From Bimastos eiseni (Eukaryota; Annelida; Clitellata; Crassiclitellata; Lumbricidae): a stretch of 64,000 nt of DNA. The DNA is taken from positions 33,646,995 through 33,710,994 of the forward strand of contig OY365813.1 of the NCBI GenBank assembly GCA_959347315.1. The letters are read 5' to 3'. The translations under genes and the position numbers were made by a program. Under the pieces are notes generated by a model that was not told the origin of the DNA, did not search any database, and saw only the letters and a program-made list of their open reading frames with translations. Below are positions 14,468-38,422 of the stretch, piece after piece (the stretch's first letter is position 1; each line of letters starts with the position of its first letter).

Positions 14468-14573
14468 ATGGACGGAGATACGAGGAGAATGTTTAGCGGA
14501 GTGGAGAGATCTGCGTTGGATTGGAGTCAAAGGATGGTGCGAATTTTATTGTGCGTAATCGTCTTGATGTCAG
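14468..14573 (+). CDS. array gene A, exon 1: signal peptide
   Basis: An ATG at 14468 and a second in-frame ATG at 14534 lead into the hydrophobic stretch MVRILLCVIVLMSG, then a GTTGGT donor after the first base of a codon (phase 1). Starting at 14534 gives a conventional signal peptide; starting at 14468 adds 22 polar residues in front. The phase fits the first cysteine-rich exon at 16430. No TATA element was recognised. Confidence 0.65.
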
Positions 14574-17500
14574 GTTGGTATCTGGTATCTTTTCTATTCA
14601 TTCATCCATTACAATAATTCAAGTAAGTAAATGTTAATGATGAGAACTCCGTCACTGTGCGCGCTCTCACAGTGCCAGTCTCAAGTCTGGGTAAAGTAGG
14701 AGGGCGACGTTAATAATCGATGTTATCACACAGTGTCGTTAAACTGCAACTTCCGCCACAATGGTGATCGATGAGTTCTATGCCCGAAGGCATGTCCATT
14801 GGCTTTACGCCACCGAGGGATGAGATGAGTGAGGTGGTCTCCCGTTGCCTTCGTCACAGCAACTCGTAACTCAGTGACTGGTGGGTTAGAGCCTGTGAGT
14901 CTGCGACCCCTTGGTTGCAAGGCACATGACATACCGCCACGTTACTGCAACCCATTTAGTGAGTAAGAAAATAAGTAAGAAAATGCTTTATTAGACTACC
15001 AGAAAACGCAAAAATAGCTTACAATGGGTATGAAATATATATGAATTTTTGACAGTCATTTGGCATCCGTATTATAGCAGATTTCTTAGCATAGGCATCA
15101 AACCTAGGTACGATGAGGTCATGTGGCCTGGATAGCCCCCAGTTCTCTGTGCAGAGGCACCCCGACCCAGGAGAGGCGGAAATGGCGATTAATAGGATGG
15201 AAAAGGAGGCAAACCTTGTCCAGAGATTCTGAACATCCATGCCATCTGTCAGCTGTCGACAGGTATTAGTTGGTTGGTTCCACACTTGTGCGAGAGCCCA
15301 CCACTGGCGATTCTTTCAGCTCACTGTGCATAGTTTGCTAACAGACGTATTTTACTCGTTCACTGTGACACTTGGCATTACTTAGGCCAGCGCAGAGAGC
15401 ACCTCTGACTGAGTAGATATCTTGAAGGGCGCCATATAATTGCTTGATTACATCATATTACATTACATTAATTCGTCTACAAACCCTTTTTGATCTTTTA
15501 CAGGTTCAATTTGACGTAATTATGACATGACGCTGACAATGCTTTGCATTATCCCTTTTTATCTTATTTATCCCTCATTATCTTACTTAATCTCTTCTTA
15601 TCCTGACTTGATTTTTCTCTTACAAAACTTTCAATGGCGTTGTTTGTTTTGTTTTGACAGTCATTGAACAAGTTGAAGGCGGGTAAAATTTTTCATCTCC
15701 ATTTATGTTCGAATAATTATGAAATGACTTTATTAAACTAAAGTATCTCTCTAATAGCCTCACTAGTAATTAAATCTTGAATAATAATGAAACCATTTAA
15801 TAACACAAATATGTCTTTAGTAAATTTAGTAAATAGCAATTTAATATATCGAATTATTATGAGTTGATGTTATTAAACGACTCAAACAAAATATTTTATT
15901 CTTAATGCTCTCATTAGAAATGCATTATCAAATAATTATGAAATAATATTATCAAACATCTAAGGTACATCTTTAGAAGATCCTCCCATTGTCTCCATTG
16001 TTATAGAAAGCTATTGTCATAGAACGTTCCTCCTCCGTATTATCTAGAGATTTGCCACTGTGGTTTAATCACTGTATTATCGCCATCTTCGTTTGCATCA
16101 TCATCATCGTCGTCGTCATTCTCATCACCAACTATTCTACAAAGTTTCTTAAACGAAATCGTGCCTTTTCAGTGGTTGGCCGTCACTCTGGAACACGCCC
16201 CCATTGGCTTTGCGCTTGTTCCACGTGGTCCACTCAGACTCCTTTTATACTCGCCTTATAACCGTTCCTTTCAGCCGTGCCGGGGTCGGTAGCGCTCCTG
16301 ATTATATGTCTTAAAGGGGCACTATATAAATTATTGTAACGAGTGAATGAATGAATGAATGAATGAATGAGCGTTTCAACAACTGACTTATCTTGCCTAA
16401 CACCTGTTTCTACCTATATCTATGTACAGGTGTGGATTGTCCAACATCCTATCAATGCGATACCTGCAACGTTACATCCTTAACCTGCAGTTCATGCAAA
16501 CCGCTGTATGGCCTGACACCTACCGGGTCCTGTCAGAGTGAGTGTGCTCCCCAGTACATACCAGGGCATGGTCGCCGAGTGGGTAGAGGTAGAGAGCGGG
16601 GAGTATTAGCGTGGAGGGTACGGGATTTAAGATAGTATTCGTCTGAGACGGTTATTGTGTATGGACCTTGTGCAAGTCCTTCGCGCACAATTGCTGAACG
16701 CTGTTGTATGGTGGAGTGTGCACTTCTGAACCGCTTTATAAGAAGGAACGAAATATCTAATACAGTTAGAATGACAATCCAGGAAGACACATTATGGGAA
16801 GGGAGGGGAGAGGAGGGGATATTAAAAATTAATTGCTGATCTACTTTTCATTGCGTGACAGACGCCGCTGTTTTCAACTTTTGAAGAGACTGGAATGACA
16901 GTGATGAAAGCGGGAAGACCGTGATCATCCTGGCACTATAACCTATCGGCCACCGTGCCAGGATGATCACGGTAGCCGATAGGTTATAACGGTCGGCCTG
17001 TAACGCGGAGAGCCCGGGTTTGATACTCGTCCAAGGCGTCGCTGTGTAGGGACCTTGAGCAAGTCTTTCGTGCACATTTGCTGTGCAAAATATTTGCAAT
17101 TGCGCCGTTGAAACGTGTGTGCACTTATGAACTAATTGTAAGAAGGGCAATATCAAATTACAATTGTACTGTATTTTACCAACCTCTCAAATGTATGCAA
17201 GGGGTGGGATGAAAGGGGAGGGAAAATAAAGAAATGAACTGACAAGTGTTTCGTTGCGTAATGATAACTACTGTTTGGCAATTTCTAAAAAAGTAGAAAT
17301 TTGACAAAAAAACGGGGAGACACATTACGGGAATGGAAGGTCAATGCGAGGTGAGGGTAGGGGAGAGGAGAGGGAATAAGATGGCAAACTGAACAATCTT
17401 TTCTTGCAGACTGTGGAAGTTCCTGTGGTGATTGCAGCGTCAATGGAGCCGGATTATGTGACTCTTGCGAAGCATCCTTTTTCCTAAACGATTCAAAGCA

Positions 17501-20500
17501 GTGCAGTCGTAAGTAAAGATCATAATTGTTTCACATAAAAGTAGTCATTAGGCTAATAATTACTGTCTCGGCCTTTTGAAAAGCGGTGATCGCCTCGTTA
17601 AGTGACATGGCTCCATGTAAAGCTACTTTTGAATGGTTGATTGAAAAACTCATCAGTAAAAGAGGTAATGATAACTAAATTGATTATCCAACTAACTCAA
17701 TTGCAACGATGTTCTGCTGGTTTTCAGCCTGCATTTCGAATTGCTTTTCGTGTCAAGATAACGTCAGCTGCAGTTCTTGTGTGACAGGGTACACACTCTT
17801 TTCCAATAACAACACATGTGGAGGTTAGTAATAGTGATATCATGTTACCGTCCTTAGTAATTGGGGTACTGGAATCACTTATGGGAGATTCTCATGCGTT
17901 TGTATGTGTGAATGTATTTCTCTTCTTATTCCTCTTTTCTTTCTTCTTCTTTTTCTTCCTCTTCCTCTTCTTCGTTTTCTTCTTCTCCTCCTCCTCCTCT
18001 GCCTTCATCATCTTCTTCTTCTTCGTAATTCCTCCTCCCCCTCCTACTTCTTCTTCTGCTTCTTCTTCTTATTCTTCTTCCTCTCTTCCTTCTCCTCCTT
18101 CTTCTTCTTCTTTTTCATTTTCTTCTTCTTCTTCATCTTTTCCTTCTTATTCCTCTTCTTTCTCTTGCCCTTATTCCTGCTTTTCTTTTCTTTCATTTTC
18201 TTCTTCGCTTTCATCTTTTCCGCGTCTTCTTCTGCTCGTTAGGCTATAAAAATTCTCCGTTATGTCACAGTGAATTGACTTTTAATTAAAGGTCGCACTG
18301 TCTTCAGTTTGTTCCAGTCACTGCTCTCAGGGTTGCGATAAAACAGGAGCCGGAAAATGCGATCTATGTGACCTCGGCTACGGAAACTCTTCGGACGGAT
18401 CTTGCGCTCGTGAGTACTCGCAAACAACAACATCAACATCTTGCTATGTAATGTAACGTTTGCTAGCTTCATTTCATCCTCATCAATTATTGGTTTGTTT
18501 GTTCAAGATAGATGGCTAGTTTGTAGTATAAGCGTAATCACCAGACTTATAAATCACCACTCTAAAGCCAAGCTCACAGCACAAGGTTATTCATGAGCGC
18601 TGCGTTGAACCAGAGGGGTTATCTCCAAAGGTTAGTCCGAAGAAGGTCAGGGTTCGATAGCTTATGAGCTATATGGACTGCTTGTCAATTCTACGGACTC
18701 AACTTAGGGATATCGTTGGCTGATGCTGCGTCAAGAATGATTGTGCACCATTGCTTTATGTCTTGCTAAAAAAAGTACGCGCTTATTAACTCCGTCGCTT
18801 GTTAAATATCCTACTCTAGTTCCGTCTCTTCTTTCTGTCGTTCTCGCCTCTTACTAATTATCCAGTTTTGCTTATTCCAGGTTGTTCTTCATCCTGTTCG
18901 CGATGCAACATCGTCGGAGCCGAAAGATGCGACCAATGCAATTTTGGTTATGGAATAACGTCGAATGGTACATGCGATGGTTAGTCGTAAACGCATTTTA
19001 ATGCAATGCAACGTCATTAGAAACAATGCATTAGAAAAGGTAGTGCAACACATAACAATGATGAATAAATAGTAACTTACGCAGTACACTAGGATCCGAT
19101 GCAATATAATATCCGATACAATACACTGGAAATAAGTAAGTATAGGCCCTATCCGCACTCTGGTGTAGCCTATAATACTGGAATTATTCTGACTTTGGAA
19201 TACATGACCATGTTATTCCATAGGCAGATAGTCTTGCGCAAACACTTTTTTTATTAGGATACTGTAATTTTAAAAGTATTGTATATACCAGAGTGCGGCA
19301 ATGCAGTTGGTCAAATAAATAATATATTTAGGCTACTTTTTTACAGCGCAATAAGATTCAATTTAGGTTTAATTCAATGCATACGTTTGACTTCTGCATG
19401 AAAATTATTTTAGAGGCATGTTTTACACTCGTCGTTGAGGAAATTTTTCGACGCACTTCTGTCCATTTCTATTAACGGTTTAGTACTTTACACTAAACGT
19501 TACATGCAGTAGTTTAGTTTAACGACACTGTGTGATGACATGGATCATTTGCGTCGCCTTCCTCCTCCTCTTTTATCCTGGCTTGGGACTGGCACTGTCA
19601 GAGTGCAAGCAGTGGTGCAGTTGCATGCATAGTTCAGCATGCACAAATCATTGCGTCAGCTATGGATGCAATGCAACAGATGCTAACAAATGTGACAGGT
19701 GCGACATGGGATATGGTCTCACGTCAAAAGGATCTTGCGAGGTGAGAAGTAGGCCTACCTTAGGAGCCTAAATTACAACAGCTCTCTTATTGAAATTATT
19801 GCATTGTTTTCAATCAAGACTTCAATGTTTCATTTTATTACATCAAGCCAAAAGAAAAAGGTTACGGTATCACAAAGTCTTATTAAAACGCATATGACCA
19901 GGAACTATTATTAATAGAGGATGAAATTCTCGCAAGAGGGGTGCGTATTAGGTGATGGGTTTTGATGCCAATGATACGATAGTGATCTGATTATGATTAT
20001 GATAATGACATGGTTAGGCCTATGTTATGATAATGATATGATAATAATATATTCTAAACGCTTCATTCTTGTTTTCACTTCGTTACCAAAGAAGCTAAAG
20101 AGGAGATGTCTTGAAATAGTCACTATCACCTTTCATCGTCACATAGACTAGTTTTTTAAAGACTTTTTTCTTATTAGGCCTACATGTATGGACACAATAC
20201 GCATGCATTGCAACATAATAATTAGCAGAGTATTTTACTAGAGTCACTGAACATTCATGTCATATGGGATTTTAGTCTCCAACTGGTAACTGTTTATTTT
20301 CAGCATGTTCTGATCACTGCAACATAACGGGCTGTAAAGTTTCTGGAGCGTACAAGTGCGATAAATGCGATCCAGGATATAAGATGGCAACAAACAAAAC
20401 CTGTGGCGGTATTTATATAATCTTAATTATTAGGCCTACACGAACCGGCAGTCTTCTATAGTGACTTTAATTAATCGTTACTTAGGCTATTTATTGAACT

Positions 20501-23500
20501 ATGACTCATTTAATGTTATTTTACAGCGTACAGTAAAATCATTAAAGCAATTCTAGAAAATTCAACAGAAGTGTGTCCACTATAATTTTCTTAAGTAGGC
20601 CTAATACATGCAAACATACATAAAGGAGCGCCATTATTGCACTTCTACGTCATTGCTATGTCATTATTACGTCATTATAGCGACACACTTACGTCAGTCA
20701 AATTTTACCTCATGTAAACATACCTTACTGCGGTGGGTCAAAAATGTCTACTAATGAACGAAGATACGGTACAGCGTCAGAGTTTTGTTCAATTCTTGAT
20801 TGTTATCTTTTTCTTGATATTATCCATAACTTTTGTGAAGCTGTTGCACTGAGAAAATTCTAAGATTTACACTTACAGTACAACTTACACATGCAAGTTT
20901 TAAATTGGTTTTCTGATGAAATTAATGAATATTTATTTTTTGCATTTCACTTAGCTTGCTCTCAACACTGTACAAAATACGGTTGCAACGTCACTGGGGC
21001 TTACAAATGCGATAAATGCGACGCTGGATATGGCTTCACGTCAAGTGGAGGATGCGATGGTAACAAGTACCAGCGTTTTGTAATTTAAATATGCATTTGC
21101 TTCGAGAGTCCTGAAAGCCAGAATCATATCAAATAATGATTAACAAGGAATCTATATTAGATAATTGGCTACTCGTTAAATATAAATTCGTATACACGAT
21201 TTACTCTTAAACAGATTTCAACAAAATCTAAATTTTGGTTCTGTTGAAAATATGATGTTTTTCATCCGCCAAAGGCATTTTTTAATCTTTCCGACATAGT
21301 TAATCGTCAACTTTCCTTCATTACTAAACATTAATGAATCAGCCTTGCTATGTTGACAAATGTGAACATTTCTTGGTCTCGATTATCGCCCCAAAACGAG
21401 TGACACGACTTTGACTTACATGGGAAATTTCCAGTCCTGTGCATAATAGATCCTAGGCGTTTAGACAACGTTTATTCAACACATTATGAGATTTAAGTAC
21501 GATTTAAGTTAAAGCAACCATGAAATGATTGCATTACAATTACCAATGTCACCAGTTTGCTAAAACTGAATTGTCTTGAACTTCCAAGAAACTTTTGAAA
21601 TCTGAATCCATGCTCTTGGCTTTTGAGTGGACTTTGGAGTTTAGGATTATGACTACGCTAAACATTTAGGGCCTACTCGACGTCACCGTTGATGGGTGTC
21701 TTGTACATTACTGTAACGCATGACGGAAGTCATTCTATCACATGCGATTGATTCTCTGACAAATGGTTCACCGACAAATGCCTGCTAATCCAACTTCAAT
21801 ATCAGCAAGAATTTTTTGCAATCAATTCAACTTATTTTAAAGCAAGAATTTTTGCCAGTAATCGAACTCCTATTTCAGCAAGAATTATTTGAATCTATAT
21901 GTCATCTTTTTTGTAAGAATTACTTTCATCAATCCAACTTCTATTTAGGCAAGTACTATTACATGTATTGACAATCCAGCTTCTATTTTAGCTAAAACAG
22001 TTGGCGAATAATAACCTTTATGGTCCTGAACCTTTCTGTCCATGAACCTGTTATCGGTAAACCATTTGTCGGTGAACCATTTGATGTGACACTGATCATA
22101 CTATAGCGCGGACTTTACATGCCGCTGAACACAGATGCCTGTTCATTTCAGTCTGTTCTGCTTACTGCACCGTGTACGGATGCTACTTTGACGGGGCCTA
22201 CAAGTGCGACCAGTGCGATGCAGGACACCCTCGGGCTAACCGAACCTGCGTCGGTGACCCTCCTCCTCCTCCGACTGGAAGTAAAGACCCCTTAACTGAA
22301 TTCACCTGTCTGATGAAGAAATACATTATCGTTAAGGACGTTAATTCGTATCTAATCATTTCAATGCGTAGGCCTACTCCTCCATAGCGATGGTACACGT
22401 GTCTTAAATGCACAAAGCGTTTATTGATGAAGCAAAAAAGCGAACTGTCTCTGGTTAACATATAACGAAACCCATTCATTGTAGTCAACGTTAAATTTAA
22501 TTTTTTACTCTATTGATCACAAAAAAGTTAAAATACATCGCGCACCGATCGTTGCTTGTTCACTGTTCAGCGCTTTGATGTTGACAAAATAACTCATATG
22601 TTCAGCATCCATTAATCGCTCAGGATGTTGCTTTCTATTTCGGAAAAAACCTACATTGTGAAATAATTCTTAATAAGTTGGTTCTGAACACCGCAAAGTA
22701 GACATAGACACTGTGATAAAGCGCTACACGGACATTGGAACGCAATATGTGAATACTGAACGGGAAGTGAAAATGTAATCAATCAATCAATCAATCAAAA
22801 ATACTTTATATAGCGCCCCTTCAAGGTAATCGCAGACGAAGAACAAAGGTGAACGAAGAATTAAAGTGGAACTAAAAATTAAGGCATGACCACGGAATAG
22901 ATGAACCAAAAGTGAAAGTTGAACTGAAAAAGAAACCTAAACTAAATACGAAAACGTGATGATAACATATTGCTTAGAAATGCGATTTATTTTTCAGATT
23001 GCTCTGCCAACTGCACCGCATTCGGATGTTACGCAACTGGGGCGTACAAATGCGTACGCTGTGATTTCGGATATGGTCTGACTTTCAACGAATCCTGTGA
23101 CGGTAAAAACTAAATAACAATAACGATACTGATAATAATATTCACACGTGATGCGTTAGATTTAGGTTTCAAGTCGATGTTTCTGTCGAGTTATGAAATG
23201 AAGTTTTATTTGTTTAGTTTGTTCTTCACACTGTATGACGCACGGATGCAACGTTACTGGTGCCTACAAGTGCGATCAATGCGATGTCGGATATGGTCTA
23301 ACATCAAATGGATCGTGTGATGGTAATAATAATTATCAGATATACTCAACGGTTTTACAAGAATTATTGATTACACGAGTAAAAGAAACATAGCGGATCA
23401 GAGAGAATGTCTTCATGATATTCGACTTTTCTAAGTATGTCGGAACGCTGAGAGTGCGGAAGCGGGATGAGATACGAATAACAGCAGAAGAAATGAGTTG

Positions 23501-23686
23501 GCTGCGGAATGTCGCAGGTAATTTCAAGATTACTGAAATAAGAAACAATGAAATAAGGGTATTCCAGCAGATTTGCTAGACAAGGTCGTTCAAGAATTGC
23601 TTCGATGGACGGAAGTGTAGAGAGAGACAGACAGAGCGACATGTAGACCGACAGAGTGGATAGAAAGAGAGAGACAGAGACAGACG

Positions 23687-23752
<66 letters not shown>

Positions 23753-25474
23753 TATATGAAACAAAGAGTTACAAGTGCGAGTAGTGTGACGTTGTAGTGA
23801 CGTTGTATACGGTCTCACAGCAAACGGATCATATGCGACAGTAAGAAATTCACAGAGGCATCCCGACGAGTATCAAGCGACACACCTTTCGCATTCTGAA
23901 CCATTTTAGGTATTATTTTAGACGTATTGTGTGACGGTTCTAAAGATAACCAAAACTATTTCCAATTCAAAATGGCTATTATAAAAAATTGGAGAACTTA
24001 GATAATTTGATATCATTTCAAATTTTAAAGCACGGATTGCACATTTAGGTTGGCCTATAAGAATCTCATTTAGATGTTAACTGTGACATGCGATTTATTT
24101 AAGCTTGTTCTGCACATTGTGCTACTATTGGCTGCAACCTGACTGGGGCTTACAAATGCGACCAATGTGACGTCGGCTATGGCTTAACGTCAAATGAATC
24201 ATGTCACGGTAATCATTTCAATGCCTACATGCATTTATAAATGCGAGTTTGGTCCTTACAAAAATGATAAATCATCTAAATTTTGGCCACGATTTTTTTC
24301 GAAGGATTTCGTTAAGATCGTGCTTGTTGATATTTTTTATTCAGCCTGTTCCGCGTACTGTACGAAGTACGGATGCAACGTTACTGGAGCTAACAAATGC
24401 GATCATTGTGACGTTGGATATGGACTGACAGTAAACGGATCTTGTGACGGTAGTCATTTTAATGTCTACATGTTGCTAGAGATTTTCAAATGTGACTGAT
24501 TACTTGTGATCATGATAAATAAGTTATCTAAGACGTGTGTCAACGATTTTCCTAAGATTTGGAAACGATTGTGTTTGTTGATTTTAAAATTCATTTTCAT
24601 TGTTGTTATCATTACGTGTGTTGTTAATTCAGTCTGTTCCGCGTACTGTACAACATATGGATGCAACGTCACTGGAGCTTACAAATGCGACCAATGCAAC
24701 ATCGGATATGGTTTCACTACCAATGGATCATGTGACGGTGAGACATACCTAAGGGCAACTTGAAGAGCTTCAGACGACTAATCATTCATATTCTAAGCTA
24801 TTTTCAGAATTGAGTTGCATTGCCTACGTCATTTCAAATACGATTCGGAATTTAAAAGTGTAAGTGTGTTGGTGCAAATAACATCCATGAGGCTTCCCTG
24901 AAAACTTTCGACATAACTATCACTCAAGTTAAGAGAATTCAGATATCGTTTTTATCGGTTTGATTGAAATGACAATAATCAATTTTTGTAGAATCTCGTT
25001 TGAAAATTTGCCTTCATATGTTCTATAATGTGAATATTTTAGTTTGCTCTGCACACTGTACAACTGTTGGCTGCAACATGACTGGAGCTTACAATTGTGA
25101 TCAATGTGACGTCGGATACGGTCTAACGGCAAATGAATCATGTGACGGTAATGATTTCAATGTCTGCATGTTGCTAAGCATCAAGTAATGTGAGTTTTTC
25201 CTTAAAATGACGAATCACTTATAAAAATGTTTTGTCTACGATTTGTCTAAGTTTTCTTAAAGATTGCATTTGTTGGCATTTTCTATTCAGTGTGTTCTAT
25301 TTACTGTACAACTTACGGATGCAACGTCACTGGAGCTTACAAATGCGATCAATGCAACGTCGGATATGGTCTCACAGCAAATGGATCTTGCGATGGTAAT
25401 AATAACAGTAGTACACTCATTCAATTACATCATTAACTTGTATACAGTTAAATTAGTATTAGTAGGCCCTGTTA

Positions 25475-25507
<33 letters not shown>

Positions 25508-28500
25508 GTAATGATAATAATAATAATAGTAATGATAATAATAATGTTAATGATAGTGATATTATTATTATTACTAGTATTATTATTTTCATTATTTTAT
25601 TCACCAACCTGGTCTGATTATTATTTACATATAGTAGGCTATCTACGTTGAAATGTATGCCTTAATGTATTTTTTAAGTGATCAAAGTTTCATGTGAAAC
25701 TGGTTTTTCGTTTCTAGCTTGTTCTTTACACTGTACGAAGTACGGATGCAACGTTACTGGAGCTAACAAATGCGATCATTGTGACGTTGGATATGGACTG
25801 ACAGTAAACGGATCTTGTGACGGTAGTCATTTTAATGTCTACATGTTGCTAGAGATTTTCAAATGTGACTGATTACTTGTGATCATGATAAATAAGTTAT
25901 CTAAGACGTGTGTCAACGATTTTCCTAAGATTTGGAAACGATTGTGTTTGTTGATTTTAAAATTCATTTTCATTGTTGTTATCATTACGTGTGTTGTTAA
26001 TTCAGTCTGTTCCGCGTACTGTACAACATATGGATGCAACGTCACTGGAGCTTACAAATGCGACCAATGCAACATCGGATATGGTTTCACTACCAATGGA
26101 TCATGTGACGGTGAGACATACCTAAGGGCAACTTGAAGAGCTTCAGACGACTAATCATTCATATTCTAAGCTATTTTCAGAATTGAGTTGCATTGCCTAC
26201 GTCATTTCAAATACGATTCGGAATTTAAAAGTGTAAGTGTGTTGGTGCAAATAACATCCATGAGGCTTCCCTGAAAACTTTCGACATAACTATCACTCAA
26301 GTTAAGAGAATTCAGATATCGTTTTTATCGGTTTGATTGAAATGACAATAATCAATTTTTGTAGAATCTCGTTTGAAAATTTGCCTTCATATGTTCTATA
26401 ATGTGAATATTTTAGTTTGCTCTGCACACTGTACAACTGTTGGCTGCAACATGACTGGAGCTTACAATTGTGATCAATGTGACGTCGGATACGGTCTAAC
26501 GGCAAATGAATCATGTGACGGTAATGATTTCAATGTCTGCATGTTGCTAAGCATCAAGTAATGTGAGTTTTTCCTTAAAATGACGAATCACTTATAAAAA
26601 TGTTTTGTCTACGATTTGTCTGTTTTCTTAAAGATTGCATTTGTTGGCATTTTCTATTCAGTGTGTTCCATTTACTGTACAACCTACGGATGCAACGTCA
26701 CTGGAGCTTACAAATGCGATCAATGCAACGTCGGATATGGTCTCATATCAAACGGATCTTGCGACGGTAATAATAGTAATAATAATACTGTGGCACGAGG
26801 ATCAGAAGAAAGCAGGTTCGATTTCTTCTGGTTCTATTAATTTTACATAGCTTCAAACATCATTTTAAATGTAAACACATTGTCGGTTATTTAAACAGTA
26901 TCGTATGACAATTGAAATGACAGTTCTACTGTATAGCCAACTATAAAATTTCGAAGACAAATATCACTCAGATTAGTTGGGGCATGTGACATAGCTTGTA
27001 AGGTTAGCCTCAGTTTTAAGAATAACATTTTGAAATTGCTTTGACATGCGGTTTATTTTAGTTTGTTCTGCACACTGTGCAACTTTTGGCTGCAACCTGA
27101 CTGGCGCTTACAAATGCGATCAATGTGACGTTGGATACGGTCTATCGTCAAACGAATCATGCGAAGGTAATGCTCCATATTTTTACAAGATGCAAAACAT
27201 TTCGCAATGAAGCCATTGGTTTTTATAAATATAATAAACTAATTATCTAAATTGGTCTTCTGTTTTTCTAAAGATTTCATAAAGATCACATTGGATTAAA
27301 TTTTGGTTCCATTAATGTTTTTAATTCAATGCGATTTTATTCAGTTTGTTCCGCATATTGTACAATATACGGATGCAATGTCACTGGAGCTTATAAATGC
27401 GACCAATGCAACGTCGGATATGGAATTCTATCAAACGGATCCTGCGATGGTAATAATCACAATATTCATTATCGTTGCTCAGCATTCACTAATTTCAATT
27501 TTTCTTTTCTAAGTTACTATATGTCCAAATGTAAATGAGTTTTTCTTAATATTGCATAAAAATTGTGTTGGTTGTAATTTATTTCAGCCTGTTCCTTATA
27601 TTGTACAACATTTGGATGTACCATTACTGGAGCTCACAGATGCGATCGATGTGATCTTGGATACGGTTTGACAGTAAACGGATCATGTGATGGTAGGCCT
27701 AATCATTTTAATGTCTACATGTTGCAACGCGTTTCTTAATTAATTAATGTTTTCATTTTATAAATAATACAACAATAGGCCTAACTTAAACTTTGTCTGC
27801 GATTTTCATAAGATTTTGAAAAGACTGTCGTTACTGAAATAATTATTCAGCGTGCATTACATTCAGTTTGTTCTTAATTCAGTGTGCTTTAATTTCAGTT
27901 TGTTCCGCGTATTGTACAACTTACGGATGCAACGTCACTGGAGCTTACAAATGCGACCAATGCAACCTCGGATATGGTCTAATGGCAAACGGATTTTGCG
28001 ATGGTAATAATTATAGTATCACAATGAGTTTAACTTGAATACCCGCTGGTCTCATCAATTCAGCTCAGCTTTAAACGGTAATATAGTTTTAGGGCTAAAA
28101 CAAGCTTTTATATTTTGACCTGACCGTTTAGCGGCTAAAACACATTTTCTTAATCTAACTATCCAGTCTCGTCAAGGTAATTTATAAATTTGCTTTTCTG
28201 TATATTTTAGTTTGTTCCGCACACTGTGCAACAATTGGTTGCAACGTCACTGGAGCATACAAATGTGATAAATGTGACTTTGGTTACGGTCTAACGGCGA
28301 ATGAATCATGTGACGGTAATGCTTTAGTATGTCTACGTGTCGCTAAGCATTTCTTAATTAAGTTATTCCTTGCAAAAGTATGACAGATGATCAGCACAAT
28401 AACAATTTTGTCTACCATTTTCCTATGATTTCGTAAAGACTTGTTGTTTGAAAATAACTGTTCAGTGTGTTTTACTTCAGCGTGTTCCGCATACTGTACA

Positions 28501-30769
28501 ACCTATGGATGTAAGATCAATGGAGCTTATAAATGCGATCAATGCGACATCGGATATGGTCTGACGGCAAATGAATCATGTGACGGTAATCATCGCAATG
28601 TCTACATGTTACCAAACATTTCCTAATAATGTTGGTAGGCCTACTCTTGAAAATATGATAAATGAATAATCTAAATCTTGTACATTAATTTTCCAAAATT
28701 TCGTGCAGATTGTATTTTGATGAAAATTTCGATTCAGTTTGCTTTTGATTCAGTGTGTTCCATTTACTGTACAACCTACGGATGCAACGTCACTGGAGCT
28801 TACAAATGCGACCAATGCAACGTCGGATATGGTCTCACGGCAAACGGATCTTGCAACGGTATTTATCTCAATGCTGAACGGCTGCTAAACCTCACCCAAT
28901 TTCAATTATTCTTTTAAAATTTATTTTTCAAAGTAATACCTTGGATGATTATAGTATTGGTTGGAATTTTTCAGCATGTTTCATGCACTGTAAACAATTT
29001 GATGAGGTGATTTTCAATGATACATAAATTTAGAGACAGATATGTCAGCAATGGATATATATCGTAGGTAATCAACATGCAATGTTGAAATGGTTGTTGA
29101 GCATAATTCGGTAATTGTAATTAGGGAACTACTAACATGTAACATGAACGATGGGAACCCAACCGTAATCGTAACCGTTATGTCCAAACTTCTACGCCAC
29201 TCAAAGACCAAGCGCAGGGCACCAGCTTATTCACGCGCGCGGCGTAAATATCATAGTGCACTTGTTGCGCCCCAGTTTGACGCTTCTGTGATATGAAGAG
29301 TAGGAGGATGGAACTCTGATGCAATGGAAGTGGGATAAACCATTTTTATATTCTCACTGTGTCATCAAAGTACGAAACAATAACCTAGACATAGAAACGT
29401 TGTACGAAGAGGGATGACTACGTATCTGGCATTTATATAGCGTCTATACATATGTTTAAAATCAGAGCAATGACAGAAGTCTTTTGAATTATTGCACTCT
29501 GTGCGGCCAATTGTGTGTCATGCGATGTGAACGGAGCTGATAAATGCGACGTCTGTAATGCAGGATTCGAACTGACAACCGAAAAGAATTGCACTGGTGA
29601 GCCTTTCATATAAAGATCTTTGCATGTACCTATGCATATATGCATGAATATACGTATGCATCTGTATAACTATGTTGCTTGTTTTGCGCCTCTTTAAGAT
29701 GACTCCTAAGCCAGGCACGGCCTTGTGACGTTCATAGAAAGAGCAAGATACCTGTGGAATACATGCATAATGTAGGTCCTGAAGGAAAGAACGCAGGTCC
29801 GAAGGGAGGCAATCCCTATCAATCCATCTATTTATCCATCCATATATCTATCTATCTGTCTATCTTTCTTTCTATCTATCTATCTATCTATCTATCTATA
29901 TATCTATCTATGTATTGAGAAGGCTCTCTTCTGCATGGTAGCTGTCTGAGCAAGTGGAACCACAAAGTCACCTCTTAAGGCCGAGCGCAGAGATCAGCGA
30001 CTAGGGCAAGCCACAGTTATTTATCCATCTACATGTTACCAAACTTCTCCTAATAATGTCAGAAGGCCTACTCTTGAAAATATGATAAGGCAAAGAGAAC
30101 ATCCCAAAGATAAAAAGGTCACGTCCTGCTAACTAAGACTTTTCTGGATGAAGTAGAGGCTTCTTGAGAGATGAAAGTTCTTTGACGAATAATCCATTAA
30201 TTCGACGAATCATCCGGTAACAAAACGTCCTCGTGCCCATAGACCAAATCGCGCCTTCTCAGTGGTTGGCCCCTCGCTCTGGAACAAGCCCCCCGTTGGC
30301 GATGCGCTTGTCACCCACGGGTCCACTGAATCTTTTAATACTCTCCTTAAAACCGTTCTTTCGGCCGTGCTGGGGTCGGGGGTGCTACTGAGTAGTTGCC
30401 TTTAAAGGGGCGCTATATTAATCTTCGCAATGAATTAGGGAATGAAAAAGGGAGCATTAGCACTAGTACTGTATTTTGTCACATTGCAGTACTTTACACT
30501 GTGTTAATTTCTTTAACGTAGCCACAACAACGTCGGACACAGCGACCATCGTGAAGACATTACTCGCGGCTGTGCTTGGAGCCATTGGCAGCGTCCTTCT
30601 ACTGACAGTCGGCATCACTGGGTTCTACTACTGTTGTCGTACAAATGCTCCTAGCATCAACACAAGACGACCAACGTTTACAGCGTCAAATGTAAAGACT
30701 TTTCCAGCAGAAAGGTTCACACGACCCACGTACTACAGATACTCGCCACGTGATCGTTTTTACCTGTAG
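14534..30769 (+). CDS. array gene A: tandem Cys-rich cassette membrane protein (gene span)
   Basis: Gene span over a signal-peptide exon, about 27 intact cysteine-rich exons and a terminal exon with a transmembrane helix and tail. Every internal intron is phase 1, so each exon is a symmetric cassette. Most are 105 bp and encode C-x3-C-x4-C-x7-C-x2-C-x11-C with the core GAYKCDQC and GYGLT, plus sequons at NVT and NGS or NES. The repeat resembles the growth-factor-receptor/furin-like cysteine-rich fold, where C-x2-C-x-x-G-Y recurs; assignment to a named family is inference. Predicted product: secretory signal, long glycosylated ectodomain, single type I membrane span. Read from the alternative start at 19535 through every intact exon, the frame stays open for 897 codons. 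Whether 14534-18979 and 19535-30769 are one gene or two is unresolved. Confidence 0.75.
14780..14950 (-). mobile_element. tRNA-derived SINE (family 1)
   Basis: Related to the copy at 3855-4070: shares tggctttacgccacc, gaggtggt..cccgttgcc and the minus-strand tRNA-like head. It lies in the first intron of array gene A. Confidence 0.6.
16160..16375 (+). mobile_element. LINE 3' end (family 2) with (GAAT)n tail
   Basis: Encodes a remnant of the conserved RAFSVVG...W motif that closes CR1/L2-type ORFs, then cgtgccggggtcgg, aaaggggcactatataa and a gaatgaatgaatgaatga tail. It abuts the first cysteine-rich exon of gene A. A sister copy at 30245 sits just before the transmembrane exon. Confidence 0.7.
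16430..16537 (+). CDS. gene A exon 2, divergent Cys-rich unit
   Basis: 108 bp, phase 1-1, acceptor tatgtacag and donor GTGAGT. Encodes GVDCPTSYQCDTCNV..CSSCKPLYGL, six cysteines. Its spacing matches the first Cys-rich exon of gene B (38423), so it is the membrane-distal type. Confidence 0.88.
16640..16845 (+). mobile_element. SINE body (family 2), headless
   Basis: Shares ggaccttgtgcaagtccttcgc..cacaattgct with the SINE at 16955 and the minus-strand copy at 43965; the tRNA head is missing. Confidence 0.55.
16955..17215 (+). mobile_element. tRNA-derived SINE (family 2)
   Basis: A-box-like GCCGATAGGTTATAACGGTC and B-box-like CGGGTTTGATACTCG, followed by the family body ggaccttgagcaagtctttcg. 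Its head is part of an exact inverted duplication (16918-16988) described in the findings. Confidence 0.65.
17410..17508 (+). CDS. gene A exon 3
   Basis: 99 bp, phase 1-1, donor GTAAGT. Encodes CGSSCGDCSVNGAGLCDSCE and on to KQC. A diverged unit with shortened first loops. Confidence 0.88.
17728..17823 (+). CDS. gene A exon 4
   Basis: 96 bp, phase 1-1, donor GTTAGT. Encodes PCISNCFSCQDNVSCSSCVT, then GYTLFSNNNTCG with sequon NNT. Closest in layout to gene B exons 42460 and 46848. Confidence 0.88.
17922..18245 (+). repeat. intronic (CTT/CTC)n polypyrimidine tract
   Basis: About 320 bp almost entirely C and T on the plus strand, in the intron between the exons at 17728 and 18308. Apparent Ser/Phe-rich frames here are artefacts of the tract. 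Confidence 0.95.
18308..18409 (+). CDS. gene A exon 5
   Basis: 102 bp, phase 1-1, acceptor gtcttcag, donor GTGAGT. Encodes VCSSHCSQGCDKTGAGKCDL, then CDLGYGNSSDGSCA; has the GYG core of later units. Confidence 0.9.
18881..18979 (+). CDS. gene A exon 6
   Basis: 99 bp, phase 1-1, acceptor cttattccag, donor GTTAGT. Encodes RCSSSCSRCNIVGAERCDQC, then NFGYGITSNGTCD with sequon NGT. Last unit before the internal start at 19535. Confidence 0.9.
19535..19748 (+). CDS. signal peptide fused to Cys-rich unit: second start of array gene A
   Basis: ATG at 19535 opens a typical signal peptide (MTWIICVAFLLLF, then PGLGLA), followed without an intron by ECKQWCSCMHSSACTNHC and a standard unit with NAT and GYGLTSKGSC. 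Two donors exist. GAG|GTGAGA after 19741 looks stronger but is phase 0 and would reach a stop in the next exon. A|GTAGGC after 19748 is weak but phase 1 and keeps frame. The same unit could instead be an internal exon through an acceptor-like agttcag ending at 19637 (phase 1), though that site lacks a pyrimidine tract. So this is either an alternative first exon, giving a product without the five upstream units, or the start of a separate gene. Confidence 0.7.
20304..20408 (+). CDS. gene A Cys-rich exon
   Basis: 105 bp, phase 1-1, acceptor tattttcag. Encodes CSDHCNITGCKVSGAYKCDK, then CDPGYKMATNKTC; the sequons are NIT and NKT, shifted from the usual places. Confidence 0.9.
20955..21059 (+). 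CDS. gene A Cys-rich exon
   Basis: 105 bp, phase 1-1. Encodes CSQHCTKYGCNVTGAYKCDK, then CDAGYGFTSSGGC; the second sequon is lost (SGG). Confidence 0.92.
21780..21990 (-). repeat. periodic GAAGCTGGATTGATGA-type repeat, reverse orientation
   Basis: Minus-strand diverged copies of the 33-35-bp motif in the 1.1-kb intron before exon 22152. Confidence 0.6.
22152..22280 (+). CDS. gene A Cys-rich exon with proline tail
   Basis: Encodes CTVYGCYFDGAYKCDQCDAG, a shortened loop (HPRANRTC) and, if the GTAAAG donor at 22281 is used, the extension GDPPPPPTG, giving 129 bp in phase 1-1. An earlier, poorer phase-1 donor (GTGACC after 22256) would give a normal-type end without prolines. The polyproline may act as a hinge between the older distal units and the homogeneous array. 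Confidence 0.8.
22770..22860 (-). mobile_element. LINE-type 3' end with (GATT)n tail, reverse
   Basis: atcaatcaatcaatca followed by tttatatagcgccccttcaagg: the reverse complement of the aaggggcgctatataa end shared by LINE family 2 copies. Confidence 0.55.
22998..23102 (+). CDS. gene A Cys-rich exon
   Basis: 105 bp, phase 1-1, acceptor atttttcag. Encodes CSANCTAFGCYATGAYKCVR, then CDFGYGLTFNESC; the first sequon is replaced by YAT. Confidence 0.92.
23218..23322 (+). CDS. gene A Cys-rich exon
   Basis: 105 bp, phase 1-1, only 115 bp after the previous exon. Encodes CSSHCMTHGCNVTGAYKCDQ, then CDVGYGLTSNGSC; first unit that fully matches the array consensus. Confidence 0.93.
23600..23752 (+). 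repeat. (GA)n-rich purine tract
   Basis: GA/GACA purine repeat ending in a perfect GA run, directly before a decayed cassette exon. Confidence 0.92.
23766..23840 (+). pseudogene. decayed cassette exon of gene A
   Basis: Matches the 3' two-thirds of a cassette (tacaagtgcga ... ggtctcacagcaaacggatc) but has a TAG at 23782-23784, an 11-bp duplication that shifts the frame, a mutated last cysteine (TAT) and no acceptor or 5' half; the GA tract replaces these. Confidence 0.85.
24104..24208 (+). CDS. gene A cassette, class H
   Basis: 105 bp, phase 1-1. CSAHCATIGCNLTGAYKCDQ, then CDVGYGLTSNESCH. Class H is marked by SAHC at the start and NES at the end. Confidence 0.93.
24345..24449 (+). CDS. gene A cassette, class V
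   Basis: 105 bp, phase 1-1. CSAYCTKYGCNVTGANKCDH, then CDVGYGLTVNGSC. From about 24358 it is identical to 25731 onward (1373-bp duplication). Confidence 0.95.
24633..24737 (+). CDS. gene A cassette, class Y
   Basis: 105 bp, phase 1-1, donor GTGAGA. CSAYCTTYGCNVTGAYKCDQ, then CNIGYGFTTNGSC. Identical twin at 26006. Confidence 0.95.
25043..25147 (+). CDS. gene A cassette, class H
   Basis: 105 bp, phase 1-1. CSAHCTTVGCNMTGAYNCDQ, then CDVGYGLTANESC. Identical twin at 26416. Confidence 0.95.
25291..25395 (+). CDS. gene A cassette, class Y
   Basis: 105 bp, phase 1-1. CSIYCTTYGCNVTGAYKCDQ, then CNVGYGLTANGSC. Diverged twin at 26662. Confidence 0.95.
25475..25575 (+). repeat. (AAT)n microsatellite
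   Basis: AAT/TAATGA tract in an intron of the array; absent from the twin intron after 26766 except for a short aataataat run. Confidence 0.95.
25718..25822 (+). CDS. gene A cassette, class V
   Basis: 105 bp, phase 1-1. CSLHCTKYGCNVTGANKCDH, then CDVGYGLTVNGSC. Only the first ~13 bp differ in kind from 24345, placing the duplication breakpoint inside the exon. Confidence 0.95.
26006..26110 (+). CDS. gene A cassette, class Y (twin of 24633)
   Basis: 105 bp, phase 1-1; same encoded unit as 24633, with the same flanking intron sequence. Confidence 0.95.
26416..26520 (+). CDS. gene A cassette, class H (twin of 25043)
   Basis: 105 bp, phase 1-1; same encoded unit as 25043. Confidence 0.95.
26662..26766 (+). 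CDS. gene A cassette, class Y
   Basis: 105 bp, phase 1-1. As 25291 but GYGLISNGSC; the near-identity of the duplicated block fades here. Confidence 0.95.
27062..27166 (+). CDS. gene A cassette, class H
   Basis: 105 bp, phase 1-1. CSAHCATFGCNLTGAYKCDQ, then CDVGYGLSSNESCE. Confidence 0.95.
27345..27449 (+). CDS. gene A cassette, class Y
   Basis: 105 bp, phase 1-1. CSAYCTIYGCNVTGAYKCDQ, then CNVGYGILSNGSC. Confidence 0.95.
27588..27692 (+). CDS. gene A cassette, class V
   Basis: 105 bp, phase 1-1, donor GTAGGC (inside a TAGGCCTA octamer). CSLYCTTFGCTITGAHRCDR, then CDLGYGLTVNGSC; the first sequon is lost (TIT). Confidence 0.93.
27899..28003 (+). CDS. gene A cassette, class Y, with stacked acceptors
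   Basis: 105 bp, phase 1-1. CSAYCTTYGCNVTGAYKCDQ, then CNLGYGLMANGFC; the second sequon is lost (NGF). Three more acceptor-like copies precede it at 16-bp steps (CAG ending at 27850, 27866, 27882). Confidence 0.93.
28211..28315 (+). CDS. gene A cassette, class H
   Basis: 105 bp, phase 1-1. CSAHCATIGCNVTGAYKCDK, then CDFGYGLTANESC. Confidence 0.95.
28481..28585 (+). CDS. gene A cassette, chimeric Y/H
   Basis: 105 bp, phase 1-1. Starts like class Y (CSAYCTTYGC) and ends like class H (DIGYGLTANESC); the first sequon is gone (KIN). A second acceptor 15 bp upstream would add VCFTS in frame. Confidence 0.93.
28754..28858 (+). CDS. gene A cassette, class Y
   Basis: 105 bp, phase 1-1. CSIYCTTYGCNVTGAYKCDQ, then CNVGYGLTANGSCN. 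Last fully intact cassette of the homogeneous array. Confidence 0.95.
28975..29006 (+). pseudogene. truncated cassette head
   Basis: After a good acceptor (aatttttcag) the sequence encodes [A]CFMHCKQFDE and then a GTGATT, losing the rest of the cassette. As a 32-bp exon it would leave phase 0 and break the frame, so it is probably dead. Confidence 0.6.
29195..29260 (-). mobile_element. LINE 3' end remnant, reverse
   Basis: Reverse complement of the tgaataagctggtgccctgcgc..gagtggcg end shared with the LINE at 36.5 kb. Confidence 0.6.
29498..29596 (+). CDS. gene A divergent Cys-rich exon with AC instead of AG acceptor
   Basis: A 99-bp unit encodes CAANCVSCDVNGADKCDVCN, then AGFELTTEKNCT, and ends at a good GTGAGC donor in phase 1. 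At the position where every other cassette has AG, the sequence reads ttattgcAC. The upstream in-frame sequence meets TGA, so no other acceptor rescues it. It may be recently disabled, use a non-canonical site, or be a base error. Confidence 0.5.
29820..29920 (+). repeat. (TATC)n microsatellite
   Basis: Imperfect ctat/tatc tetranucleotide tract in the last intron of gene A. Confidence 0.93.
30245..30440 (+). mobile_element. LINE 3' end (family 2)
   Basis: Same order of blocks as 16160-16375 (cgccttctcagtggttggcc, cgtgctggggtcgg, aaaggggcgctatat). It encodes a remnant of the FSVVGPSLWNK motif. It abuts the transmembrane exon. Confidence 0.72.
30522..30769 (+). CDS. gene A terminal exon: transmembrane helix and tail
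   Basis: Phase-1 entry through acceptor tttctttaacgtag, then Thr-rich ATTTSDTATIVKT, a roughly 24-residue hydrophobic helix (LLAAVLGAIGSVLLLTVGIT), a juxtamembrane FYYCCR (candidate palmitoylation site) and a basic, tyrosine-rich tail ending RFYL before TAG at 30767-30769. A cag acceptor at 30489 leads to an in-frame TAG before the helix and is unlikely to be used. The tail has no kinase or other enzyme domain, so signalling would need adaptors. Confidence 0.85.
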
Positions 30770-34313: not shown

Positions 34314-34811
34314 GTTCCCTAACTAATATTCAACTATGACGAGTAGGCCTACACTGGCAGTACACAGTCGATGGAAAGGTGAGATGGTGAGGATTGGCTA
34401 CTCTTGATTCACACCTCATGCCAATGTCTGCCCAAGGGCCATATAGCATAGAAACTGCTCCTCTTCGCTTTTCCTTCTATAATATTTTCCTTCTTTTCTT
34501 CTTCTCCTTATTCTCCTCCTTCACATTTTTATCCTTATCCTTCTCTCCTCCTTCTCCTCCTCCACCATCTCATTATTCTTCTCCTCCTCCTCGTTCTTCT
34601 TCATCTCCATCTTCATATGAATATTATCTTCTTTCTCTTCCTCTTACCCTTTATTTTCTATCTCACCTTTCACTTCTTTCTCTTCATCCCCTCCTCCACC
34701 TCTCCCTCTTTTTATCGGATATCTTCTCTTACTTAATTGTTGGCTTTCAGCCTCAATTACGACCGGTTTCATCACCACTCCAAGCTTCACTCCTTCCACC
34801 TACAACGCCCT
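34314..34811 (+). repeat. dispersed repeat R1, copy 1 (~490 bp)
   Basis: From ccctaactaatattcaacta to ttccacctacaac it matches 47403-47896 almost base for base. The middle is a pyrimidine-rich Ser/Pro-like tract. Mobile-element class unknown. Confidence 0.88.
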
Positions 34812-35265
34812 TAGGTCCTACTGATCAGTGATCGCTAAGGGCCCGTAAGGGGCGGCATAATACTCTAAGACTGAAATAACATATATATTGTTACAGACTT
34901 AGTCAGACATCATTTCCGTATAAAATCATATAGATCGGTGATAGCTCAGGTGTAATATCGTCCTTTTTATATCACTTTCAGTACATCAACTTTATTCTTT
35001 ACCGTTATAGCTACTTTACTAAAACATTTCCAGCCTTCACGCTGGACAACGTCTTCAACCCAATGAGACAGCATGGTGCTGCGGTGGTAGTCTGCTGTGA
35101 TGTTGGTGACACAGGTATAGACTGAGGATGGCTGTCATAGCTTGCATTGAAGAGTTCGGTTTTCAGTCTCGAGTGAAAATTAACAGAGGAAAGAGACAAA
35201 GGCAGATGAACGGTAAAATTAAGAGGCGAGAAAGGAAGATGAGCGAATTGGTGAGAACTCTTTTG

Positions 35266-35781
35266 CTAGTCCATTCCAAAAAGCTCTTGCATCATAGACT
35301 TATTCTTTGCGAGTGCTTGGCTTGCTGAGCCAGGCCTTTCCAGCTTCTTCGACCCTGTGAAGGGCCGGAGACCGCCAGGAAGTCTTGTTATTGCGCAGTC
35401 CTCCACTATGTGGAACATCGACTGCATCTCGCCACACTCGCTCAAGGCCGACGTGGCCTGGGACCATCTGAGGAGATCAGCTCCACAGTGGCCGTGGTTT
35501 GTGCGGAAACGGTATAGGAGTGACCAGAGTCGGCGAGGTAGGTCTGTGCCGGGTGGTTTGCTGGTCGGGTCATCAATCAGGAATTTGTTTGCGACGTTTG
35601 ACTCCTCCTCTCTGCCCTTCAAAGGGCGTCCGCTGGTGCCGCCTGGAGGAGATTGGTCATCGTAGACTAAGAAGCGGCTACAGCACTTCAGGGATAATGG
35701 GACTGGAGTCCGAAACAGTAAAATCCTTGCTGTTCTTGGGACTACCTCTCCATCGGTCTCATTAAATGGGTGTAGAACCAC
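35266..35781 (-). mobile_element. non-LTR retrotransposon ORF2 C-terminal fragment, reverse
   Basis: An uninterrupted minus-strand frame of 171 codons contains LLYRFRTNHGHCGADLLRW, CGEMQSMFHIVEDCAITRL and GGLRPF. The pattern W-x-LNRFRT...C..C..Q-x-MxHI...C is the C-terminal zinc-knuckle end of Jockey/I-type LINE ORF2 proteins. The reverse transcriptase part is missing, so this is a truncated relic. Confidence 0.7.
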
Positions 35782-36465
35782 AGATACTGATCATTCTTTC
35801 TGCCCTGCTTATGTCCAACACAGATCTATTCCCGGTTTCTGTTATTTTCATTCTTCAATTATTCATCAAGCTTCCGCGTAGCCAATTATTTTGGAATCCG
35901 TGCAGCTACATCGATATGTAACGTAATGTAATATAACCAAACATTTAGCGCCCTTCAAGATATCTATTCAAAGGTGGTCTTTGCGCCGGCCTTAATTATG
36001 TATAGCTCGTACAGGTTACATGCTGTGTAATGCGCGATGCTAGGACTATTTTTCTTTCTTTGAAATCCGCCTCAAAACTCACTATTTCACATAATTTGTT
36101 TTCAAGATTACTAACAGTTTGTCCTCTGACGATTTACTCAGCACACCTCAGATTCTCATTTCTGTGTCACTTAGGGCTGGTTAAAATTATTTCAATGATC
36201 ATCATAATAATGGTAAAAATTGTAATTTAATGTCCATTTTAATTTTCAGCTCTCTTTCCGTACGCTGTACAAGGTGAGTGTGACTGATTCTGACTTCAAA
36301 CTTCTTCAGAACCCATCATGTCATGAGATTCATGACTAACATTATCACCTTCGCAAATACCTCCTTAATTTATTGCCTAATGCTAGGTAGGCCTACGCTG
36401 TGATGACAATTTACATCGCATGCAGCGTTGGGCTTGCGCTACTTATAATCTACTATACAAAATAT

Positions 36466-37800
36466 CTGCTATTCAAAGTCGGCGTTTCTGGGACTGATCT
36501 ACTCTGGTTCCAATCCTACTTATCTTCCAGATCATTCTCTATCGAAGCTTCCAACCTTTGTTCGCAACATCTCCCACTCACATGTGATGTGCCTCAAGGC
36601 TCCGTCCTAGGACCACTCCTCTTCATCCTCTATACCACACCATTAAGTCATCTCATACAATCCTCCTCTGTCGACCACCACCTGTATGCCGATGACACTC
36701 AACTCTACATATCCTTCTCCCAACCTCTTTCTCCACCTCCATTGCACAACTACTGAATGTAGTAAACTTAGTCTCCGAATGGATGTCATCTAACCTTCTC
36801 TGCCTCAACCCTTCCAAGACAGAATTTATCCTCCCTGATCAAATCAAGAAAACACCCGATCCTCCAATTCACTTACCCAATAACGGTTCATCCCTTCCCC
36901 TCACCTCAAATGCCCCAGTCAGAAATCTTGGCGTCACCTTCGATCCTCATCTCTCTTTCTCCAATCACATCTCAAACATCTTTCGCTCCTGTTTAATGCA
37001 CATTCGCGACCTTCGCCGCATCCGACCCATGCTCGACTCAAAACTGCCTATACCATTGCCACCTCCATCGTCCACTCCAAGCTTGATTACTGCAACTTCC
37101 TTTTCCTCAACCTTGAAGCCACACAAATCAAACGTTTACAACTAATCCAAAACTCATTAGCCAGAGCCGTCACCAGAACACCCAAGTATCATCACATCAC
37201 CCCAATCCTCAATTCACTTAACTGGCTCAAAATACCAGAGGGCATTCACTTCAAAGTCTTGTCACTAACTTGCAACTCCATACAATATTCCCAGCCCAAA
37301 TATCTTCGCGAACTCTTCACCATCCAGCCAACCCGCTCTATCCAATTTCCTCTTGCCTCACCCTCACTCAACCCCCGATCACATCTCATCTCAAGTTCTC
37401 CACCCGCCCCATATCAAACGCCGCACCTCGTCTCTGGAACGACCTTCGTCCTGAATTTCGTGCCTTCTCTGTTCCTCCATCATCACTGCCCGTCATGCAA
37501 CATCTTCTGTCCCTAGCGCCCCTATCCATTACACCTCGGGCTTTCCATTCTAAACTTAAATCACGCCTTTTCAAGAACTCTTAGCCAGACTCATTACTTG
37601 ACATTCCACCTGTCAATCCCCCAAAAGCGACAACCTCCTTAACAGCTACTCTACCTCCCTGCTGACCTCCTGGAAACCGAACTTTTGACCTCCCACGGAC
37701 TATCCTTTGGACAACCCTTTTGATTTTACTCAGCGTTCGTGAATAAGCTGGTGCCCTGCGCTTAGATTTCAAGTGGCGCTTTAGAAATTTTAGATTACGA
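36466..37800 (+). mobile_element. 5'-truncated LINE (CR1/L2-like) with RT motifs
   Basis: Three frames in series encode reverse transcriptase blocks: SGTDLLWFQSYLSSRSFSI, CDVPQGSVLGPLLFILY, and HLYADDTQLY with the YADD catalytic box at 36685-36696. These are followed by NLGVTFDPHLSF, SKLDYCNF.., RLQLIQNSLARAVTRTPKY and the closing APRLWNDL. Frameshifts near 36755, 37070 and 37400 disable it. Its 3' UTR (to about 37800) is the master for the 3'-end fragments at 12590, 14060 and 33950. No endonuclease domain is present. Confidence 0.85.
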
Positions 37801-38375: not shown

Positions 38376-38422
38376 ATTTCGTCCTATATAATGTACAAGA
38401 GAACTTATTGTTTTGATTGTAG

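Follow-up and report, generated by a model that had tools for sequence, protein, structure and literature searches.

Dscam genes encode immunoglobulin (Ig)-type domains, and a furin-like (Fu) repeat contains six cysteines, the fourth and fifth of which make up a CxxC. Published accounts describe the R-spondins as combining a TSR1 domain with two Fu repeats (PMC4926470), and arthropod Dscam1 as selecting one exon per cluster through competing RNA structures (PMC6071210). In repeat-expanded fertilization proteins such as abalone VERL, one gene is described as having over 20 tandem repeats that are homogenised across the array (PMC8830517), and the SRCR and SpTransformer immune proteins of echinoderms, which are cysteine-rich or repeat-bearing, are described as belonging to large multigene families that lie in clusters (PMC10855680, PMC9623053). 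The locus considered here, gene 1, lies in a window of 64,000 nucleotides from the annelid Bimastos eiseni (assembly GCA_959347315.1, contig OY365813.1, positions 33,646,995 to 33,710,994), and is an array of short cysteine-rich cassette exons. It shares with Dscam1 a tandem array of similar symmetric exons within one gene, with VERL more than 20 homogenised repeats, and with the echinoderm families membership of a large clustered family. However, VERL's repeats are ZP-N domains, whereas those of gene 1 are six-cysteine cassettes, and the domains of the echinoderm proteins also differ from those found here.

Gene 1 is one member of a multigene family clustered on one chromosome. The explanation favoured here, with a probability of roughly 55%, is that the family encodes type I membrane glycoproteins in which a conserved head, binding a partner, is carried on a Fu-like rod of evolving length, and that the transcripts are constitutively spliced. 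The ectodomain would be a string of six-cysteine Fu-like repeats of about 35 residues, each encoded by one class 1-1 exon. The head, partly common by position between genes, would consist of the first few repeats, which are diverse; the rod would consist of the membrane-proximal ones, each of which has two near-invariant N-glycosylation sequons. Unequal crossing-over may lengthen the rod and decay of its members shorten it, both tolerated by the symmetric exon phase. Intact cassettes would all normally be spliced in, such that the genes would differ in rod length and head, not in cassette choice, and the head might bind its partner on cells, microbes or gametes.

Exon anatomy of gene 1 and its family

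Gene 1 spans 14468-30769 on the + strand, and consists of a signal-peptide exon, 27 cassettes, and a transmembrane exon ending in a stop codon. Its joined reading frame is 1056 residues long, and its product is cysteine-rich and probably a type I membrane protein. All 27 cassettes are open, are preceded by AG and followed by GT, have a length that is a multiple of 3 with phase 1-1, and encode six cysteines. The exons are as follows:

14468-14573, +: signal-peptide exon, phase-1 donor (GGTTGGT)
16430-16537, +: cassette 1, 108 bp, six cysteines
17410-17508, +: cassette 2, 99 bp
17728-17823, +: cassette 3, 96 bp, grouped in the cassette tree with g5 and g6 head cassettes (support 100/83)
18308-18409, +: cassette 4, 102 bp
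18881-18979, +: cassette 5, 99 bp
19638-19748, +: cassette 6, 111 bp in frame, with a frame-shifting rival donor at 104 bp
20304-20408, +: cassette 7, 105 bp
20955-21059, +: cassette 8, 105 bp
22152-22253, +: cassette 9, 102 bp
22998-23102, +: cassette 10, 105 bp
23218-23322, +: cassette 11, 105 bp
24104-24208, +: cassette 12, opening the run of 16 105-bp exons
24345-24449, +: cassette 13, 105 bp
24633-24737, +: cassette 14, 105 bp
25043-25147, +: cassette 15, 105 bp
25291-25395, +: cassette 16, 105 bp
25718-25822, +: cassette 17, 105 bp, first 12 bases outside the recent duplication, remainder a copy of cassette 13
26006-26110, +: cassette 18, 105 bp
26416-26520, +: cassette 19, 105 bp
26662-26766, +: cassette 20, 105 bp
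27062-27166, +: cassette 21, 105 bp
27345-27449, +: cassette 22, 105 bp
27588-27692, +: cassette 23, 105 bp
27899-28003, +: cassette 24, 105 bp
28211-28315, +: cassette 25, 105 bp
28481-28585, +: cassette 26, 105 bp
28754-28858, +: cassette 27, 105 bp, closing the run of 16
30522-30769, +: transmembrane and cytoplasmic exon, phase-1 acceptor, stop codon

The original prediction, made from the letters of the window, had described about 27 symmetric phase-1 cassettes with six cysteines, 16 of them consecutive 105-bp exons at 24104-28858, and a transmembrane exon with an intact stop at the array's end, all of which was reproduced. It had placed the array at 16430-30769; the end holds, but the gene begins further upstream, at the signal-peptide exon at 14468. 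Cassette 19638 is one exception to the clean exon pattern: use of the donor that looks strongest (GTGAGA, at 104 bp) would cause a frameshift, and a GTAGGC donor seven bases further, at 111 bp, retains phase 1.

A cassette profile built from 18 of the window's cassettes was applied with a threshold of 18 bits. It gave 35 matches in the window, all on the + strand, of which 28 (one of them decayed) fall in gene 1 and seven in gene 2. The complete lack of matches at this threshold in 20 dinucleotide-preserving shuffles, in which the best score was 11.4 bits compared with 64.8 in the real sequence, rules out chance open frames, and the absence of any match on the - strand likewise rules out minus-strand genes of the cassette family in the window.

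Searching the animal's own genome (660 Mb, 118 contigs) with a single cassette gave at least 122 matches, a lower bound from 146 scored candidates, and all 122 lie on the window's own contig, hereafter C8. They form three clusters at about 28.77-28.85, 32.30-32.35 and 33.66-33.86 Mb. The 334 kb examined comprise the third cluster (g1-g6, where g1 and g2 are the window's gene 1 and gene 2), stretches B1 and B2 of the first, which is partly covered, and stretch C of the second; they contain 171 cassettes of at least 18 bits. The array of about 27 was thus real, but an undercount for the family, with eight more cassettes in gene 2 alone. Both AG and GT are in phase 1 for 164 of the 171 by script (165 counting the 16430 exon, which the script mis-set), and 165 encode six cysteines by script count. 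The mapped genes and groups hold 7 to 37 repeats each; this variation sets them apart from the already described, fixed-length family that the original prediction had allowed for.

The ends of the genes are partly shared. The hydrophobic segment (D)W-x-ILLT-x-LLL-x-x-GG is common to g3, where it is less complete, g4, g5, g6 and C, and is followed by RRR-[IV]-Y and KES in g4, g5 and C. On reading the sequence, a phase-1 acceptor precedes the transmembrane exons of g1, g4, g5 and C, and in g4 and g5 Ser/Thr/Gly-rich exons lie upstream of the transmembrane exon. A stalk-like or Ser/Thr/Gly-rich exon, or a recognisable conserved transmembrane exon, follows the putative rod in four of nine mapped groups or genes. 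A search for signal-peptide exons identified them in g1 and g4, gave one weak candidate in C, and found none in g2, g3, g5 and g6.

Cysteine pattern, predicted fold and relatives

The 160 six-cysteine cassettes compared have the spacing C-x3-C-x(2-5)-C-x(5-7)-C-x2-C-x(10-15)-C, with C4-x2-C5 in all 160 and C1-x3-C2 in 155; the six cysteines and the C4-x2-C5 step are those of a Fu repeat. Two modelled cassettes resemble the Fu repeats of R-spondins, with E-values that are not significant. For the head-cassette model (pLDDT 83), R-spondin Fu repeats fill all nine VIA rows and all but one of the 14 Foldseek rows, with TMq 0.65-0.75, and the root-mean-square deviation in VIA is 1.4-1.6 over 31-32 of 33 residues. 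The cassettes probably fold like Fu repeats, though the support is weak, and the relation is one of resemblance and not membership. The predicted hairpins superpose on the Fu repeats of RSPO1 and RSPO2, yet unlike the R-spondins the mapped genes carry many repeats, one exon per repeat, and a membrane anchor, and they have no Pfam furin match.

No Pfam model scored above its cut-off for the cassette proteins, and no furin-like profile appeared with E limits of 1 or 5. EGF-like domains have the spacing C4-x-C5; EGF repeats are excluded, given that none of the 160 cassettes has a single residue between C4 and C5 and that no EGF family appears in the Pfam scans. DUF6140 was rejected for gene 1 (20.2 bits against a cut-off of 27), and the sole match in a profile search of solved-structure sequences, a BCL6 zinc-finger piece with E 0.28, was taken as chance. 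The Giardia VSPs (Pfam VSP) share with the cassette proteins a long CxxC-rich ectodomain and one transmembrane segment. However, g5 reaches only 19.2 of the required 31.4 bits, pieces of gene 1, B1 and g4 have no VSP match, and the genes described here are intron-rich animal genes with regular 35-residue repeats. The VSP likeness thus looks like common cysteine-rich composition rather than membership.

In a collection of 5.8 billion proteins, weak relatives numbered eight with the gene 1 query, one with g5 and one with g4; they are 28-33% identical and cysteine-rich, bear no useful names, and two of the ten (P0005 and P0010) carry Pfam VSP. These queries were partial (13 of 27 gene 1 cassettes, 9 of 11 from g5, 11 of 15 from g4), and the g5 and g4 searches scored the 8000 candidates sharing most words. 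The original prediction, which named no family with this exact cassette, agrees with the Pfam and protein searches, where no named family was found, a weak absence in a collection without a positive control for this animal group. The literature search likewise returned no title naming such a family, which is not proof of absence from print.

Cassette relationships, array growth and selection

A tree of 162 of the 171 cassettes, built from few columns and with many open forks, unites some N-terminal cassettes across genes with good support: it groups the third cassettes of g5 and g6 (100/99), to which one C cassette is joined (98/85), and contains a further set with cassettes of g1, g2, g4, g5, g6 and C (100/91). 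Cassettes 2-4 of g5 compare with the same positions of g6 at 0.67, 0.81 and 0.73, against 0.36, 0.43 and 0.56 within g5, and the second and third kinds also have starred support in the tree. Later g5 and g6 cassettes find their best match mostly in their own gene, with exceptions. The labels g1, g6, C, g4 and B2 are each clustered in the tree (0 of 500 shuffles), while g2 and B1 are not clustered by the same 500-shuffle test. Most non-head cassettes cluster by gene, having grown through recent duplication, and these relationships suggest a conserved head carried on a glycosylated rod.

By the similarity of neighbours, the repeating unit of C is two cassettes long (lag 2, 0 of 1000 permutations) and that of g6 four (lag 4, 1 of 1000). 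Gene 1 also shows lag 4 (0 of 1000), for which one recent duplication may be responsible, and the B2 result is not significant (69 of 1000). The gene 1 duplication and the decayed cassettes with mapped limits are:

24357-25404, +: duplicated unit, copy 1, cassettes 13-16, 99.2% identical over 1048 bp to copy 2
25730-26775, +: duplicated unit, copy 2, cassettes 17-20, 99.2% identical to copy 1
23770-23837, +: decayed cassette fragment with a stop (nhmmer E 0.00041)
29499-29584, +: decayed cassette with six cysteines and a donor, no AG acceptor in range upstream

Because the identity of the two units includes their introns, gene 1 owes four of its 27 cassettes to very recent copying, an assembly artefact being less likely. 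The 1.05-kb duplication begins 12 bases inside an exon, and the 25718 cassette is therefore a different first dozen bases joined to a copy of the 24345 cassette. A further fragment with an early stop was recognised by eye near 28976, and about ten decayed cassette fragments are left in all. In cluster C, identical or near-identical cassette pairs are spaced about 9.6 kb apart. Array growth is most simply explained by birth and death of cassettes through unequal crossing-over, with duplication in the assembly as a possible alternative.

Cluster C (C8:32319546-32347813) was also seen to have two cassette kinds in a strict dyad over much of its length, a dyad common to g4, and to contain a recent tandem copy of about 9.6 kb.

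For equal-length six-cysteine cassettes (20 of 26 in gene 1, 30 of 36 in g6 and, for dN/dS, 19 of 36 in C), the ratio of replacement to synonymous change (dN/dS) between array cassettes is 0.19 in gene 1, 0.16 in g6, 0.29 in C, 0.22 in B2, 0.25 in g5 (three cassettes only) and 0.64 in g4 (six cassettes), and thus lies at 0.16-0.29 in five of six sets. This large excess of synonymous over replacement differences shows that the cassettes are coding exons under purifying selection, now or until lately. Replacement difference per site relative to the mean synonymous difference reaches a maximum of 1.04 at one gene 1 position and 0.86 in g6; the site-by-site comparison (pN/pS) in these two genes gave no site with clear diversifying selection. 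Glycosylation sequons occur at least once in 152 of the 171 cassettes and at least twice in 114, and in g6 they are nearly fixed (N11 in 29 of 30, N30 in 30 of 30).

Gene 2 is a second, partial gene in the window:

38423-46943, +: gene 2, eight cassettes at 38423, 39613, 40913, 42460, 43681, 44757, 45710 and 46848
47838-47972, +: stalk-like exon, Pro/Thr-rich, 135 bp, phase 1-1
34806-46140, +: 11.4-kb segment with the gene 2 head, 98.3% identical to C8:33740279-33751637 (g4's)

Its transmembrane exon has a phase-1 acceptor at 48607, so that gene 2 is not taken to be dead, and since this exon differs from that of gene 1, gene 1 is an untypical family member. Further near-identical pairs surround gene 2 (34312-34806/47399-47893, 98.6%; 41750-43038/46133-47404, 94.0%), and gene 2 is therefore a patchwork of duplicated pieces from its own neighbourhood and from g4.

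Several other frames lie nearby. A reverse transcriptase remnant resembling a long interspersed nuclear element (YADD-type motif, by eye) occupies 36480-37560, within the duplicated 11.4-kb segment, with a copy at C8:33742178. An open frame that follows gene 2, at 49508-49873, may encode part of its cytoplasmic tail, since the alternative frame would be rich in tyrosine and include two YxxI motifs. By eye, a run of open frames between gene 2 and g3 encodes C2H2 zinc fingers (window 52751-53878 and 57623-58969; C8:33699721, 33704608, 33712140 and 33715716), the two in the window belonging to a duplicated group of 74-79% identity. Elsewhere on C8, an open frame between g4 and g5 at 33771985 (L015) appears SRCR-like by eye, which would place a scavenger-receptor gene in the cluster. 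Another, at 28839578 (L031 9578-10000), about 6 kb downstream of the B2 cassettes, resembles a von Willebrand D-type domain by eye and may or may not belong to the B2 gene.

Splicing, rival explanations and significance

From the symmetry of the cassettes, the original prediction had proposed a combinatorial, Dscam-like system. Phase-1-flanked exons with a length that is a multiple of 3 are described as class 1-1, the general class of exon-shuffled animal extracellular modules (PMC8001218), and the cassettes have these features. Phase-1 symmetry alone is therefore no pointer to combinatorial splicing, since it is general for such modules and would be expected of a constitutively spliced repeat protein too, and the proposal is unsupported on this ground. 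Its premise, that any subset of cassettes keeps an open frame, was confirmed, as no stop arises at the junction of any ordered pair of gene 1 exons (any upstream with any downstream exon). Donor matches, acceptors and polypyrimidine content are similar along the genes, head compared with array. A docking- or selector-like element was found in at best 6 of 16 array introns, compared with 5 of 16 in controls, by a crude and weak 14-mer test of one gene. The locus shows no docking or selector signal above controls in this test, and, unlike in Dscam1, no Ig family appears in the Pfam scans.

A combinatorial receptor, in which cassettes would be skipped or chosen per transcript or cell to provide a repertoire for immunity, adhesion or self-recognition, is unlikely. 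The open exon joins would permit it, cassettes vary at about ten positions, their copy number is still changing, symmetric modules are said to favour frame-preserving exon skipping (PMC8001218), and the SRCR-like frame lies in the same cluster. Yet symmetry is the rule for extracellular modules by the same account, head and array do not differ in how well their splice sites match or in what their introns are made of, the weak intron test gave close to the control count, and no site has pN/pS clearly above 1. Less probable again is an undescribed multigene system, comprising eight or more cassette arrays on a single chromosome, whose symmetric Fu-like cassettes would be alternatively included and would change quickly in number between individuals, so as to yield individual- or cell-specific immune or self/non-self receptors. 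It is highly improbable that the dense array is a pseudogene or was produced by misassembly: two segments are 98-99% identical, decayed cassettes are present and no signal-peptide exon was found for gene 2, but outside the duplicated unit the cassettes of the array differ widely (mean synonymous difference 0.53), and they remain open, spliceable and under purifying selection.

Two further explanations are each doubtful, though to be taken seriously. A gamete-recognition or egg-coat family, whose repeat number and homogenised repeats would evolve under sexual conflict as in abalone VERL, would account for the recent tandem duplication within arrays, the clustering of arrays by gene and the glycosylated repeats, and repeat expansion is described for fertilization proteins, VERL with its 23 ZP-N repeats among them (PMC8830517). 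Purifying selection nevertheless dominates inside the arrays, and the Pfam scans hold no ZP or other fertilization domain. An epithelial glycocalyx or structural adhesive protein, mucin-like and lacking specific recognition, in which repeat number would set length only, is consistent with the near-invariant sequons, the low variability, the Ser/Thr/Gly-rich stalk exons of g4 and g5, and short tails with no obvious signalling domain by eye; the position-conserved, mutually diverse head cassettes, however, suggest more than a spacer.

The preferred reading remains that of a constitutively spliced head on a rod. The family is new, but its bead is probably a known one and its exon logic is known as well; the special mechanism proposed for it is unproven and is not the likeliest reading. 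Provided that the anatomy has been read correctly, this is a large receptor family, unnamed in the libraries searched, in which an old structural bead was expanded exon by exon. The array would then be a direct case for how a coding exon array grows, for variation in cassette number between individuals, and for splicing diversity versus length. Should it prove true that cassettes are mixed per cell or per individual, the family would constitute a new diversified receptor system in an animal.
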